Source: Spirochaetia bacterium (GTDB taxonomy: Bacteria; Spirochaetota; Spirochaetia; B11-G9). From it: a stretch of DNA of 37,589 bases. Each line of letters starts with the position of its first letter. Positions within the stretch are counted from its first letter, which is position 1. Made by a program: the position numbers and the translations under genes. Location of the stretch: positions 13,527 through 51,115 of the forward strand of contig JAOZPU010000005.1 of the NCBI GenBank assembly GCA_029932585.1. The letters are read 5' to 3'. The notes beneath the pieces are model-generated. The model was not told the DNA's origin. It saw only the letters and a program-made list of their open reading frames with translations, and did not search any database. Positions 2 to 37,589 of this stretch are shown in pieces.

Positions 2-43
2 GATAAAATGGGTGACACGTAGTGTTAGAGACCTATTTTAGTC
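2..43 (+). promoter_or_regulatory. Candidate structured leader / intergenic hairpin element, copy A (upstream of SBP gene)
   Basis: gataaaatgggtgacacgtagtgttagagacctattttagtc; 34/42 identical to 32724..32765; outer stem GATAAAATGGG/CTATTTTAGTC with one bulged G, inner 5-bp stem GACAC-GTA-GTGTT; lies 8 nt before the GGAG SD. Confidence 0.6.
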
Positions 44-61
44 AAGAAAAAGGAGTGCATT

Positions 62-1312
62 ATGAGTAAAAGATTATTAATTTTGCTGGTTGTTTTTTTA
101 ATTATCGGCAGCAGTTTCAGTTTATTTGCTGTTGGGGCAAAAGAGGTTCCTGTTGATTATCCAGCAGAGATGGATGCCTGGCTTCAGGAAGCTAAGCTTG
201 GACCATATGAAGGAGAGCAGGACTGGGACGAAATAGAGAGACTGGCAAATGCAGAAGGAGAACTGGTTGTTTATTCTTCATCATCCAGGGTTGAAAAAGT
301 TGCTGCTGAATTTGAGAAGAAATATCCAGGGATCAAGGTTATGAGCCACGATCTTGGATCGGTAGGTACAGTAGAAAAAACAATAAATGAACAGGATGCA
401 AATCTGTTTAATGCAGATCTTATTACAACTGGAGGATCTGGTCAGGTTATACATGAATTGCTGAACAATTTTAGAATTGTAAATTTTGTTCCATCCATGT
501 TTGTGGATCAGATACCGGAAGAGTATAGAGAACCTCTTTTAAACAGAATTGTTGAAGGTTATGTTTTAATGTACAACAGAGAATTCTATGGAGATACACC
601 TCCAATTTCTAATGTATGGGAACTTACAGAAGAAAAATGGAGAGGTAAGATTGTTTTAAAAGATCCTATGGCTTCTCTTTCAAATAAAATGGGTCTGTGG
701 ACTATGGTTCAGCATGCAGATGAGTTTGCAAAAGCCTATAAAGATCTGACAGGTAATAAAGTTGAACTTCACGAAGGCGTTCCAGATGCCGGATATGAGT
801 TTATCTACAGACTTCTTCATAATGATCTTATAATACTGGGTTCAGGCAGCAAGGTTGCCAAAGCTTCCGGTGCAAAGGGCCAGACTAATCCTCCAATTTC
901 AATTACCGGTTATACATATATCAGGTACAATGAGTCTAAGGGCTATGTAAATGCACTTGTAACACCCCTTGCACCTTTTGAAAATATTATTACACCTGTA
1001 TATACAGCTATTGCACGACAGGCTGCTCATCCTAATGCAGCAAAACTTTTTACAGCTTTTCTTCTTGGGGACATTAGTATTACTCAGGACACTGTAATTT
1101 CCCAACCTTACAATGAGGGAGAAAGTGCAAAATTGCTTCAGGGACTTGGTCCTTATTATTCACCCGGATCAAAAAGCCCACGTGATACAGTTCCTGTAGC
1201 TGCTGGTGGTGAAAAATGGTATGACCTGGACAGCTGGTTTGTAGATCCTGATTTTATGTGGTTTGAAGGACAGAAAGTTCAGGACTTCTGGGTTCAGGAA
1301 GTTGGGAACTAG
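62..1312 (+). CDS. ABC transporter substrate-binding protein (family 1 / Fe3+-type)
   Basis: Signal peptide MSKRLLILLVVFLIIGSSFSLFAVGAKE; 'EGELVVYSSSSRVEKVAAEFEKKYPGIKV' typical of iron-type SBPs; SD aaggag; followed by an ABC ATPase. Confidence 0.85.
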   Translation: MSKRLLILLVVFLIIGSSFSLFAVGAKEVPVDYPAEMDAWLQEAKLGPYEGEQDWDEIERLANAEGELVVYSSSSRVEKVAAEFEKKYPGIKVMSHDLGSVGTVEKTINEQDANLFNADLITTGGSGQVIHELLNNFRIVNFVPSMFVDQIPEEYREPLLNRIVEGYVLMYNREFYGDTPPISNVWELTEEKWRGKIVLKDPMASLSNKMGLWTMVQHADEFAKAYKDLTGNKVELHEGVPDAGYEFIYRLLHNDLIILGSGSKVAKASGAKGQTNPPISITGYTYIRYNESKGYVNALVTPLAPFENIITPVYTAIARQAAHPNAAKLFTAFLLGDISITQDTVISQPYNEGESAKLLQGLGPYYSPGSKSPRDTVPVAAGGEKWYDLDSWFVDPDFMWFEGQKVQDFWVQEVGN

Positions 1313-30800: not shown

Positions 30801-31786
30801 TGCTTGAAATAAAAAATCTTAACATAAGTTTCGTCCAGGGAGAAAAAGAGGCTAATGCACTTAGAGGTATTAGTTTAAGTCTTAAACGAAATGAAGTACA
30901 TTCTCTTGTTGGTGAATCCGGATCAGGAAAAACAGTAACATCTACCTGTATAATGGGACTTCTCCCTACACCTCCTGGTCGTATAAATTCCGGTCAGATT
31001 ATTCTTAATAATCAGGATCTTCTTCTTCTGGAGGAAAAGGATCAAAGGCAAATTAGAGGTAAAGAGATTGCTATGGTTTTTCAGGAACCTGCACGATATC
31101 TAAATCCCACTTTAAAGGTTGGAGATCAAATTACGGAGATGTTAATTCTTCATCTTGGTATGAGTAATATTGAGGCTGTAGATCGGGCACTAGAGATACT
31201 TGAACTTGTTGGCCTTGAAGGTGGCAAACGAATTCTTGACAGTTATCCTCATGAACTTTCAGGTGGAATGAAACAGCGAATTATGATAGCTATAGCTATA
31301 AGTTGTAATCCTGCTTTTTTAATTGCAGATGAACCAACAACAGCCCTGGATGTAACTCTTCAGCTTCAGATACTTAATCTTATGCTAAGTTTGAAAAACA
31401 CTCTGGATATGGGAATTTTATTTATTTCACATGATTTGCGAGTTGTTCATGATATTTCTGACTGGGTTTCGGTAATATATGCAGGAAGAATTGTTGAATC
31501 AACGTCTCGTAAAGAGCTATTTACGAATCCGAAACATCCATATACACGACTTCTTCTTGAATCTATTCCTGATGCAGATAAAAGAGGTCAAAGGCTTCAG
31601 ACTATACCAGGAAAAGTTCCTGATGCAGAGAATATACCTGGGGGTTGTGCTTTTCATACAAGATGTCCTATTGCAGAGGATATTTGCAAAACAGACTTAC
31701 CTGAGACAAAAGAAGTAGGTTCGGATAATTCTGGTACCTCTCATACAGCAGCATGTCACTTTATTGGAAAACAATGGAAAAATTAA
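30800..31786 (+). CDS. Peptide ABC transporter ATP-binding protein (DppD/OppD type)
   Basis: Walker A 'GESGSGKT', 'LSGGMKQRIMIAIAIS', 'LIADEPTTALDVT', C-terminal 'GGCAFHTRCPIAEDIC'; GTG start. Confidence 0.95.
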   Translation: MLEIKNLNISFVQGEKEANALRGISLSLKRNEVHSLVGESGSGKTVTSTCIMGLLPTPPGRINSGQIILNNQDLLLLEEKDQRQIRGKEIAMVFQEPARYLNPTLKVGDQITEMLILHLGMSNIEAVDRALEILELVGLEGGKRILDSYPHELSGGMKQRIMIAIAISCNPAFLIADEPTTALDVTLQLQILNLMLSLKNTLDMGILFISHDLRVVHDISDWVSVIYAGRIVESTSRKELFTNPKHPYTRLLLESIPDADKRGQRLQTIPGKVPDAENIPGGCAFHTRCPIAEDICKTDLPETKEVGSDNSGTSHTAACHFIGKQWKN

Positions 31787-32703
31787 TTGAATTAAAAAAT
31801 ATTATCAAGGTTTTCAAAAGCCACAAACTCATATCTGTAAAAAAGGATAACTACGTAGCTGTCAATAATGTAAGTCTTGATATACAGAAAAATACTATTT
31901 TCGGTCTGGTTGGTGAGTCTGGTTGTGGAAAAACAACTCTTGCCAGATCTGTAATGATGCTGGATCCTCCCAGTTCCGGAGAAATCATTTACAATGGGAA
32001 AAATATTTCAGGCATTTCAAGAAAAGAACTCCATCCATACAGGTCAAGAATGCAGATCGTCTTTCAGGATCCAAATAGCGCCCTTAATCCTAAAATGTCC
32101 ATATATAACTGTATGAAAGAAGGTTTGGTAAACAGAAAGTTTCCAAAAGATAAGATGGATAGTAAAATTAAGAGTTTGCTTGATCTTGTTGGAATTTCTC
32201 CAAATCATGTAAATCGATTTCCACACGAATTTTCAGGAGGGCAAAAGCAGAGAATTGTTATTGCCCGGGCACTTTCCATGGAACCGGAATTTCTTGTTTT
32301 GGATGAACCTGTTTCTAATCTTGATGTATCAATTCAGGCTCAAATAATAAATCTTTTACTGGATTTAAAAGATGAGTTTTCATTGACGTATCTTTTTATC
32401 TCCCATGACCTTAATCTTGTTTCATATTTAAGTGATGAGGTTGCTGTGATGTATAAAGGAGAGATTGTGGAGACTGCTAAAACAGAAAAAATTATGAAGA
32501 AACCCATGCATCCATATACTCTCAAATTGTTTTCATCTGCTCCAGGTAAAGATAGTAATAATCTTTTTGAAGCAGATGATAGCTACAGAGAAGGGTTACC
32601 TGAAAAATTTACATATTTCCCTCCAAATCCTGATTCTACTTTGCAGCTAATAGATATTGGAGAAGATCACAGAGTTGGTTGTTATACATTAAACGGATCG
32701 TAG
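31774..32703 (+). CDS. Peptide ABC transporter ATP-binding protein (DppF/OppF type)
   Basis: Walker A 'GESGCGKTT', 'FSGGQKQRIVIARAL', 'LVLDEPVSNLDVSIQ'; start 31774 (MEKLIELKN) preferred over 31753. Confidence 0.94.
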   Translation: MEKLIELKNIIKVFKSHKLISVKKDNYVAVNNVSLDIQKNTIFGLVGESGCGKTTLARSVMMLDPPSSGEIIYNGKNISGISRKELHPYRSRMQIVFQDPNSALNPKMSIYNCMKEGLVNRKFPKDKMDSKIKSLLDLVGISPNHVNRFPHEFSGGQKQRIVIARALSMEPEFLVLDEPVSNLDVSIQAQIINLLLDLKDEFSLTYLFISHDLNLVSYLSDEVAVMYKGEIVETAKTEKIMKKPMHPYTLKLFSSAPGKDSNNLFEADDSYREGLPEKFTYFPPNPDSTLQLIDIGEDHRVGCYTLNGS

Positions 32704-32721: not shown

Positions 32722-32767
32722 TCGATAAAATGGGCGATACGAAGTGTCAAGGTTCTATTTTAGTCGA
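32722..32767 (+). promoter_or_regulatory. Candidate structured leader / intercistronic hairpin element, copy B (upstream of SBP gene)
   Basis: tcgataaaatgggcgatacgaagtgtcaaggttctattttagtcga; 34/42 identical to copy A; outer stem extended by TCGA ends; inner stem GATAC-GAA-GTGTC; 3 nt before SD ggag. Confidence 0.6.
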
Positions 32768-32780
32768 AAAGGAGTAACAT

Positions 32781-34286
32781 ATGAGAAAGGCAGCAAAATT
32801 TGGATTATTTCTTGTCATGATTATGCTTATGACAGGGATGCTGTTTGCAGCTGGGAGTAAAGAGGTTAAACCCCTCAATTTTGCTTTGGCTGGAAATCCT
32901 GATACATTAGATCCTCACAAAACTTCGGGGACTCTTACGTTTCAAACAGTTAAGAGTGTTTACGATACACTGGCAGAACCAGATGAAAATGGTGTTATTG
33001 TACCGGCTCTTGCTGAAAGTTGGGATGTCTCAGCTGATTCACTTACATGGACCTTTCATTTAAGAAAGGGTGTAAAATTTCATAATGGTGATGCTTTTAC
33101 ATCTGCAGATGTTAAGGCTTCTTTTGAAAGAGTTCTGGCAGAAGAAACAGCTTCTCCTCATAGAAAAGAGATGGGTATTATTGCATCTATGGATACACCT
33201 GATGATTTAACAATTGTATTTAATCTTTCTGGCCCACATGCTCCTTTTCTTGCAACCCTTGCTTCCGGTTGGAGTGCAATTCTTCCTAAGAGTCTGATTG
33301 ATACAGGTCATGATTTTGACTCTCTTCCTGTAGGAACCGGACCTTTTAAACTGGAAGAATGGGTTCGTGACAGTAAGGTTGTATTTTCAAAGAATGATGA
33401 TTACTGGATGAAAGGACTACCAAAACTGGATAAGGTTATTCTTCACATTATACCAGAGACATCTGTTGTTGTTCAGGGACTTATTTCCGGTCAGATAGAT
33501 GTAGTTTATATTGTTGACAGTGATGATATTCCAATGCTTGAAGCAAGTCCTGATGTTACACTGAAGGAGAATCTTACATCCCTTATAATGGTTATGCCAA
33601 TGAACACCAGCAAACCTCCTCTTGATGATATTAGAGTACGTCAGGCTATTAACTATGCTATTGATAAGCAGAAAATACTTGATATTGCATATGGTGGTGG
33701 TGAAACTATTGGAACATTTATGGATCGTGGGAATGCATACTATAAAGATTTTACAGATCTTTATCCATATAATCCCGAAAAGGCTAAAGCACTTCTAAAA
33801 GAAGCCGGTGTTGGTAATGATGTTGAATTAAAACTGTATCTTCCCCAAAATTATACCCTTCATGTTAAAGCTGGAGAGATGTATCAGGAGATGCTTACCA
33901 AGGTTGGCCTAAATGTAAAAATTCAGTTAATTGACTGGTCTACATGGATTAGTGATGTTTATAGAGCTAGTAAGTTTGACTTAACAGTTATTGGACATAC
34001 TGGAAAACTTGATCCTGATGGTACTCTTGGTGGTTATGGCGAAGGTAAATATGTTCAATGGTTTAATGATGATGCTGCAGGACTTATAAAGAAAGCAGCT
34101 GCAACAATTGGATATGAAGAAAGAAAGGTAATGTATGACCAGGTTCTTGAAATAATGGCAAAAGAAGTTCCTTTTGTTTACCTTGGTTCTTCCTATAGAA
34201 CAACTGCTTATCGATCTAATGTAACTGGATTTAGGATTACTCCGAACCTGGATACATTTGACTTCAGGTGGACAGAGTTTAAATAG
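32781..34286 (+). CDS. Peptide ABC transporter substrate-binding protein (SBP family 5)
   Basis: Signal peptide ending 'LFAAGSKEV'; 'NPDTLDPHKTSGTLTFQTVKSVYDTLAE', 'LRKGVKFHNGDAFTSADVKASFERVL', 'PVGTGPFKLEEW'. Confidence 0.95.
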   Translation: MRKAAKFGLFLVMIMLMTGMLFAAGSKEVKPLNFALAGNPDTLDPHKTSGTLTFQTVKSVYDTLAEPDENGVIVPALAESWDVSADSLTWTFHLRKGVKFHNGDAFTSADVKASFERVLAEETASPHRKEMGIIASMDTPDDLTIVFNLSGPHAPFLATLASGWSAILPKSLIDTGHDFDSLPVGTGPFKLEEWVRDSKVVFSKNDDYWMKGLPKLDKVILHIIPETSVVVQGLISGQIDVVYIVDSDDIPMLEASPDVTLKENLTSLIMVMPMNTSKPPLDDIRVRQAINYAIDKQKILDIAYGGGETIGTFMDRGNAYYKDFTDLYPYNPEKAKALLKEAGVGNDVELKLYLPQNYTLHVKAGEMYQEMLTKVGLNVKIQLIDWSTWISDVYRASKFDLTVIGHTGKLDPDGTLGGYGEGKYVQWFNDDAAGLIKKAAATIGYEERKVMYDQVLEIMAKEVPFVYLGSSYRTTAYRSNVTGFRITPNLDTFDFRWTEFK

Positions 34287-36043: not shown

Positions 36044-36397
36044 ATGTGGCAAATTGAATATACAGATGAATTTGAGCTGTGGTGGAGAAGTCTATCTGAG
36101 CATGAACAAATTGATCTGGTAGCAAGTATTGATCTTTTGGAACAAATTGGACCCAATTTGGCCCGACCTTATTCAGATACATTAAGAGGTTCAAAACATA
36201 CAAATATGAAAGAGCTAAGAACTCAGAGTAAAGGAAAACCACTACGAACTTTTTATGCATTTGATTCTCGTCGATCTGCTATTTTATTAATTGGTGGAGA
36301 TAAAACCGGAGATGATCGTTTCTATGAAAGAATGATACCTCTGGCAGATCGTTTATATGATGAACATCTTAGAGATATTAAAAGAGAGGAGTTCTAA
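36044..36397 (+). CDS. higB: HigB/RelE-superfamily toxin (phage Gp49-like)
   Basis: 'EYTDEFELWWRSLSEHEQ...LARPYSDTLRGSKHTNMKELRTQSKGKPLRTFYAFDSRRSAILLIGGDKTGDDRFYERMIPLADRLYDEHL'. Confidence 0.92.
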   Translation: MWQIEYTDEFELWWRSLSEHEQIDLVASIDLLEQIGPNLARPYSDTLRGSKHTNMKELRTQSKGKPLRTFYAFDSRRSAILLIGGDKTGDDRFYERMIPLADRLYDEHLRDIKREEF

Positions 36398-36399
36398 TA

Positions 36400-36702
36400 A
36401 TGGCTCAAAAATTTGAAAAACTTAAGAAAGAGATGAAACTGGAAAATATTCAAAAAGCAAAGATTAAAACAAATGAAATGATGGCAGAGATGTTGTTGAC
36501 TGAAATTCGTAAGGAAGCTGGTTTTACTCAAAAAAATCTGGCAGAAACAATGGGAGTTAAACAACCCAGTTTATCAAAACTTGAATCTCAGAATGATATG
36601 CAGATAAGTACACTTCAACGCCTTGTTAAAGCTCTTGGAGGGCAATTAGAAATGATTGCCCATATGCCTACTGGTGACATTAGATTAAGACAGTTTAAAT
36701 AA
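36400..36702 (+). CDS. higA: XRE-family antitoxin HigA-like
   Basis: HTH 'EIRKEAGFTQKNLAETMGVKQPSLSKLESQNDMQISTLQRLVKALGGQLEM'; immediately downstream of toxin. Confidence 0.93.
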   Translation: MAQKFEKLKKEMKLENIQKAKIKTNEMMAEMLLTEIRKEAGFTQKNLAETMGVKQPSLSKLESQNDMQISTLQRLVKALGGQLEMIAHMPTGDIRLRQFK

Positions 36703-36912
36703 AAAGCTCTATTGACTAGTTCCTTTTTACAGTATATTCTGCTTTTATCCCTACTTAGTTTATCAATAATTTAGTTATTTTGCAATTTTTAGCAGTAAAA
36801 GTTGTAAATACCTATAAATTTATTAATAAATTAGAAAGGATATGATTGTGTCAAATCTTATAACATAGAATACAGGTTCTAAAAATCTGTAAGAATAAAA
36901 GGAGAAATTAAT

Positions 36913-37589
36913 ATGAGTGACGTTATTATAAAAAATTCAAGAAACACGGAAAATGCACCCAAAAGTTCTTTTTCTACACAAACTGTAGCTTTTTCTCATT
37001 ACAATAATATTTCAGCTCAATTACCTGTAGACCCTAAAACCGGTAAAATTGTAGCTGGTGGAGCTAAAGAGCAGGCAAAGCAGTGCTTAGCAAATATTAA
37101 AGCAATTGTACACAGTATTGACCATGTTATGGATGATGCTGTTAAAATTACTGTATTTCTTAAGAATATCTCAGATATTGATGCTGTAGATGAAGTTTAT
37201 ACATCATTCTTTCACAGTGATCTTCCTACACGGACAACAGTTGCAGTTGCAGCTTTACCTATGGATGCTTTAGTACAAATTGAAGCAGTTATTTCCAACG
37301 GTGAAGGTACACATCCACAAGCGAGCTTAGATCTAATAAAAGTTTCAAGAAACACAGAAAATGCTCCAAAAGGTGTATATTCTCAAACTGCAGCTTTTTC
37401 TCATTACAATAATATTTCATCTCAACTACCTGTTGATCCAAAATCTGGTAAAATTGTAGCTGGTGGAGTAAAAGAGCAGGCAACCCAGTGTTTAAACAAC
37501 ATTAAAGCAATTTTAGAAAGTATTAACCACGTTATGGGCGATATAGTTAAAACAACTATATATCTTAAAAACATCTCTGATATTGAAGC
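36913..37589 (+). CDS. Tandem RidA (YjgF/YER057c) family protein, incomplete at window end
   Basis: Own translation: MSDVIIKNSRNTENAPKSSFSTQTVAFSHYNNISAQLPVDPKTGKIVAGGAKEQAKQCLANIKAIVHSIDHVMDDAVKITVFLKNISDIDAVDEVYTSFFHSDLPTRTTVAVAALPMDALVQIEAVISNGEGTHPQASLDLIKVSRNTENAPKGVYSQTAAFSHYNNISSQLPVDPKSGKIVAGGVKEQ...; SD aaggag; no stop before 37589; missing from ORF track. Confidence 0.9.
   Translation, partial: MSDVIIKNSRNTENAPKSSFSTQTVAFSHYNNISAQLPVDPKTGKIVAGGAKEQAKQCLANIKAIVHSIDHVMDDAVKITVFLKNISDIDAVDEVYTSFFHSDLPTRTTVAVAALPMDALVQIEAVISNGEGTHPQASLDLIKVSRNTENAPKGVYSQTAAFSHYNNISSQLPVDPKSGKIVAGGVKEQATQCLNNIKAILESINHVMGDIVKTTIYLKNISDIE

Follow-up and report, generated by a model that had tools for sequence, protein, structure and literature searches.

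Two solute-binding protein (SBP) genes, one AfuA-like and one dppA-like, are each preceded by nearly the same short structured sequence in the window (the whole stretch of 37,589 nt of Spirochaetia DNA analysed here). Is this sequence a leader that serves SBP genes, or has it reached both places by some other route? Both copies (A and B, Table 1) lie exactly where the original prediction had placed them, align without gaps and are identical at 34 of 42 bases. A chance match is most improbable, as a pattern spanning both copies matches the window twice and has no match in 100 dinucleotide shuffles. The proposed closeness to translation signals also holds: a Shine-Dalgarno sequence (SD) follows each 3' end by a few nucleotides, with the start codon 18 nt downstream of copy A and 15 nt downstream of copy B. 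The position table confirms the placement of copy B between dppF-like and dppA-like genes. The left side of copy A is hidden by a 100-N scaffold gap (G000:C112:13427-13526) that abuts window position 1.

Table 1. Coordinates of the two repeat copies (E1, see text) and of the adjoining features in the window
Feature	Position	Strand	Basis
E1 copy A, palindromic repeat, 5' of AfuA-like (SBP_bac_11 / SBP_bac_1-like) solute-binding protein gene	2..43	+	
Copy A outer stem, 5' arm	2..12	+	
Copy A outer stem, 3' arm, one bulged base	32..43	+	
Copy A inner hairpin GACAC-GTA-GTGTT	14..26	+	
AAGGAG Shine-Dalgarno immediately 3' of copy A	50..55	+	sequence
Solute-binding protein gene 3' of copy A	62..1312	+	
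dppF-like ATPase gene; stop codon 20 nt ahead of copy B	31753..32703	+	
E1 copy B, palindromic repeat, dppF-like/dppA-like intergenic	32724..32765	+	
Copy B outer stem, 5' arm	32724..32734	+	
Copy B outer stem, 3' arm, one bulged base	32754..32765	+	
Copy B inner hairpin GATAC-GAA-GTGTC	32736..32748	+	
AAGGAG Shine-Dalgarno immediately 3' of copy B	32769..32774	+	sequence
dppA-like solute-binding protein gene 3' of copy B	32781..34286	+	

The predicted fold, an outer stem with one bulge and an inner 5-bp stem with a triloop, is present in both copies: all 16 pairs form, whereas sliding the partner leaves 36-47% of cells paired. Relative to shuffled sequences, copy A folds better (z -3.3) and copy B weakly so (z -1.7), and the minimum-energy folds of both leaders leave the SD unpaired. 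The three substitutions said to keep pairing do occur; all of them, however, are one-sided and hence weak evidence from two copies alone. Across the wider family, hereafter E1, double-sided changes are found at 14 of the 16 pairs (58 matches aligned to the model). In these matches 96.5% of cells are paired, a figure biased upward because the alignment was fitted to the structure, versus 33-42% with the partner slid. Compensatory change is plain even in single copies (e.g., GATAAAATGGG..CCCATTCTTAGTC vs GATAATACGGG..CCCGTATTAGTC). The consensus, GATAAAATGGGCGACACGAAGTGTCGGGGACCCATTCTTAGTC, starts with GATAA, ends with TTAGTC(G) and describes an element of 42-44 nt with nested 11+5-bp stems and a triloop. 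On inspection, readings of E1 as a promoter or a terminator were set aside: the -10-like letters vary among copies, and no T-run follows the element. At a site common to two species, the copy in G001:C99 has lost several pairs (vs G005:C251), an indication that structure is not strongly selected for in many of the copies; a regulatory role is therefore judged unproven and probably secondary.

The covariance-model search proposed in the original prediction, started from the two window copies, finds many further copies in the genus: 6, 8, 1, 12, 14, and 20 in its six members G000-G005, respectively, and none in the sister genera G006 and G007. The host genus belongs to Spirochaetaceae, its named records being Spirochaetaceae or Spirochaetes metagenome bins (CSMAG_505, CSMAG_1928, GH26, and Dive100_bin10.36), and the names of the isolates point to cold seeps or other sites on the seafloor as the habitat. 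Covariance-model searches also detected a few, spottily distributed copies in one other spirochaete family. The class-wide model search was insensitive, missing even the window's own genome, and therefore shows presence in the second family rather than absence elsewhere. Pattern searches allowing few mismatches recovered copies A and B only, and one allowing three mismatches found no relatives; since the covariance model finds what such a pattern misses, absence by pattern alone is no evidence. A scan of viral contigs with one core pattern gave no match. The assemblies are fragmented metagenome bins, and all counts are lower bounds: E1 stands at the very start of two contigs (G003:C102 and G004:C308), and a run of N occupies a position in G000 (L231, G000:C133) where relatives carry the element; E1 thus probably breaks assemblies, so that copy numbers are underestimated.

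As E1 is asymmetric, the covariance model assigns its orientation blind to the flanks. In one fixed orientation, an SD-preceded start codon lies no more than 80 nt downstream at 42 of the 61 genus sites, 29 of these having the start codon 12-18 nt past the E1 end; in the reverse orientation, no site (0 of 61) has such a start within 80 nt. The 61 sites outnumber independent events, because orthologous sites were counted separately, and the 42:0 split is insensitive to this. According to the original prediction, many copies scattered in both orientations away from gene starts would mark a plain REP or MITE repeat: the copies are indeed many, but they do not occur before SD-preceded starts in both orientations. 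The upstream gene is usually co-directional and often ends a few nucleotides before E1 or inside its GATAA. Right flanks are 79% purine against a background of 53%, a value that includes the SDs themselves, and average only 73% at the 13 listed sites that have no start close by.

The genes that follow show no preference for transporters. Ten scanned downstream genes are gnd, rplI, rpmA, dnaN, yidC, trxA, fliQ, and those for a desulfoferrodoxin, a NifU-like protein, and a POTRA-domain protein: mostly unrelated housekeeping genes without an SBP theme. Orthologous SBP genes within the same genus lack E1, and the proposed link to SBP genes is not supported; the element probably sits by chance before the two transporter genes of the window. 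E1 might instead be an intercistronic hairpin that stabilises or processes mRNA and so raises SBP over permease expression, as the location of both window copies before SBP genes in ABC operons would suggest. The assorted genes downstream elsewhere and the E1-free SBP orthologues argue against this reading, which is very improbable.

Sister species lack E1 at many orthologous junctions. It is absent from the junction orthologous to that of copy A in L009, L011, and L013 and from that of copy B in L029, L030, L031, and L033. The SBP gene in these relatives (L009, L011, L013, and L029-L031) starts at most a few tens of nucleotides after the permease or dppF-like gene, from which it follows that E1 makes up most of the intergenic gap at copy B. 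A search with 18 concatenated flanks, followed by alignment, revealed further empty junctions in sister species (e.g., at nuoF, rpmA, trxA, fliQ, and ilvB). Clear comparisons of occupied and empty sites give an insert of 50-53 nt for a single E1, 102 nt (2 x 51) for two tandem copies in nuoF, and 90-93 nt for E1 carrying a second palindrome; comparisons with diverged or partly occupied sites yield 24-49. With E1 itself measuring 42-44 nt, about 7-8 nt are left over, in keeping with duplication of the target.

Such a duplication is most apparent in the nuoF-family gene of G005, where TAAGGGA stands before, between, and after two tandem copies of E1; the empty gene of G000 has a single native TAAGGGA. 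In G002:C225, TAAAGGGA precedes the element and TAAAGGAG follows it. Over 41 copies outside tandems, the similarity between left and right flank is 3.88, compared with 3.59 +/- 0.13 after shuffling (a value reached by 86 of 5000 shuffles), a signal that is modest outside tandem copies, with the test weakened by left flanks that are mostly A-rich or drifted. No clear target duplication was seen in the flanks of copy B.

E1 also occurs inside coding sequences. The sequence GDKTGDTECRDPVLSRKG is present twice, in frame, in the nuoF-family protein of G005, and GDKTADAEHRRPVLSRQG once, in frame, in acetolactate synthase (ilvB) of G002. In these two cases the element lies at AAGGGA/CAGGGG-type motifs, oriented as it is at SDs, and E1 plus the duplication amounts to 51 nt with an open frame. 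Of the two remaining frames of the unit, one is stop-free and one has several stops (examples translated); frame choice is therefore only partly constrained.

The in-gene copies bear directly on whether E1 could be a small ligand-binding cis-regulatory RNA, such as a riboswitch or a leader. A conserved structured leader adjoining the SD would suit this possibility, whereas several observations contradict it: E1 lies inside coding sequence, orthologous genes lack it, some copies are interrupted by another palindrome, and the downstream genes share no common pathway. Moreover, no Rfam family reaches its gathering score in the window, and permissive thresholds give chance-level matches only. With in-gene copies and spotty presence both speaking against it, the riboswitch or leader reading is largely refuted and has next to no chance of being correct.

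Taken as a whole, E1 is probably a non-autonomous palindromic insertion element. It would insert into polypurine tracts resembling an SD (AAGGRG, TAAGGRA), always the same way round, and copy about 7-8 bp of its target in doing so. Of the two resulting duplicates, the one on the 3' side would be the SD, still intact, from which the gene downstream is translated; the 5' duplicate would be free to drift, often towards A-rich sequence. Duplication of the tract would explain why E1 is found between co-directional genes, after a stop codon and before an SD, and a 51-nt unit (duplication included) with an open frame would allow insertions within genes to stay in frame. We infer transposition as the mode of movement. 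No E1 transposase or autonomous partner was found, nor, in a non-exhaustive search, an insertion sequence carrying the imperfect inverted-repeat ends of E1.

More tentative, and in our estimate slightly less than an even prospect, is the proposal that the SD itself is the target: a predicted enzyme would recognise AAGGRG-type tracts, insert the element one way only and regenerate the SD on the 3' side. If so, E1 could colonise operons without harm to translation and would occasionally add a 17-residue peptide to enzymes. To our knowledge, which here covers the open-access literature, no element has been described with the SD as its insertion target.

The main rival to targeted insertion is an account by selection only, where position is set not by the target but by survival: E1 would insert widely, and only copies just 5' of an SD, in the harmless or useful orientation, would be kept. 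The hairpin might, for instance, protect or stabilise the mRNA that follows it, or prevent the SD from being closed by pairing. The 42:0 orientation bias, the unpaired SD in the folds and the strong covariation of base pairs would all be expected under such selection. On the other hand, the nuoF-family and ilvB insertions (two cases) share the AAGGGA/CAGGGG motif and the orientation without any SD function, sister species retain the same operons without E1, and the G001:C99 copy has lost several pairs at the site shared with G005:C251. Selection alone is thus considered rather unlikely.

The original prediction had listed a REP-like repeat among its options, and this alternative proved essentially right, in that E1 is a multi-copy dispersed palindrome missing from the orthologous junctions of sister species. 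It is nevertheless improbable that E1 is a classical REP or REPIN mobilised by a REP-associated tyrosine transposase (RAYT). The element is short, palindromic and dispersed, and Y1 transposase-family genes are present in all six genus members; however, the R2 model has no match at any of 30 Y1 loci, taken with flanks of about 1.5 kb from incomplete bins, and the R3 model has none at 19 of those loci. E1 also has no GTAG tag, and its tandems run head-to-tail. A further point against this origin is that transposition of the IS200/IS605 type would not be expected to duplicate 7 bp of its target.

Among described repeats, the closest known kin are the CGTC-tagged REPs and the Rickettsia palindromic elements (RPE) (PMC3733652), which have been reported from Spirochaetes too. 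Like E1, these are short dispersed palindromes, some of them in frame within genes of known proteins, for which no dedicated transposase has been found. They differ in ending with a CGTC tag, which E1 lacks, in having a single stem of 8-9 bp with a 4-5-nt loop rather than nested 11+5-bp stems, and in forming head-to-head dimers where E1 tandems are head-to-tail; moreover, they lie near the upstream stop at a variable distance from the downstream gene, whereas E1 is at a nearly fixed distance from the downstream SD and start. GTAG REPs and REPINs (PMC3733652, PMC3116915) resemble E1 as miniature dispersed palindromes that are common between co-directional genes and can provide the stop of the upstream gene. 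Unlike those that occur with RAYTs, E1 has no GTAG and is not associated with the Y1 loci searched; its strict orientation to the downstream gene is another difference.

Pneumococcal BOX, RUP, and SPRITE repeats (PMC3049150) are likewise small, of parasitic type, nested in each other and located in operons. They are enriched between convergent genes, in contrast to E1, which lies between co-directional genes beside the SD and has no known autonomous IS partner. With MITEs, by definition 70-300 bp long (PMC3733652), E1 shares imperfect terminal inverted repeats and a target duplication (TAAGGGA at nuoF; modest elsewhere). Unlike them, it has only about 43 nt, is near 50% GC in most copies and is fixed in orientation to its target. 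The TAACTGA repeats of marine Beggiatoaceae (PMC4679880) are similar in being dispersed in one orientation just 5' of start codons, before genes without a common function, but they are arrays of a non-palindromic heptamer that mostly replace the SD, while the E1 hairpin keeps the SD on its 3' side.

Among the small palindromic repeats that are so common in bacteria, and especially among families without a known transposase, E1 constitutes an unusually clean case for asking how such repeats move and what directs their landing: it combines a defined target motif, a fixed orientation, an insert length that can be measured, sites left empty in sister species and in-frame insertions in metabolic enzymes. 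If the SD is indeed the target, the element would follow a safe-haven strategy within operons and would show how short hairpins can come to fixation between cistrons; such hairpins may later gain a function in stabilising mRNA or in translation. Any effect of E1 on expression would probably be secondary.

Other repeats accompany E1. Inside some copies lies a second palindromic repeat (CTGGTCGCAAACAAGTTTGCTGCTCGCCCATGCATCC and variants), inserted on one or the other shoulder of the inner hairpin, so that nested forms of 84 nt or longer result (L107, L103, L094, L096, L167, L168, and others). A third (GCGACAGAGACTTTC ... GAAAGTGCTCGAAAGC) often lies directly 3' of E1 (L069, L081, L166, L169, and L087), as it also does in the second spirochaete family (e.g., L054 and L153). 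Neither palindrome showed a general link to RAYT loci, one of which contains a copy of the second. In G004, E1 is part of a larger MITE-like repeat in about nine places (length roughly 190-230 bp, inverted ends GAGCTTTTTGCGCTGT / ACATCGCAAATGCCTC), and these copies are uninformative on the target of E1 itself. Loci with the larger repeat include L061, L066, L071, L076, L078, L079, and L082, some of which also contain the second palindrome in reverse. A similar repeat end occurs once in the window, at about 28336 on the minus strand, between M20 peptidase and HAD genes. Two small adjoining genes at 36044-36702 of the window resemble, from their sequences, a RelE/HigB-type toxin and an HTH antitoxin, and the coding sequence from about 36900 to 37589, which runs off the window end, appears to contain two tandem RidA-like domains.
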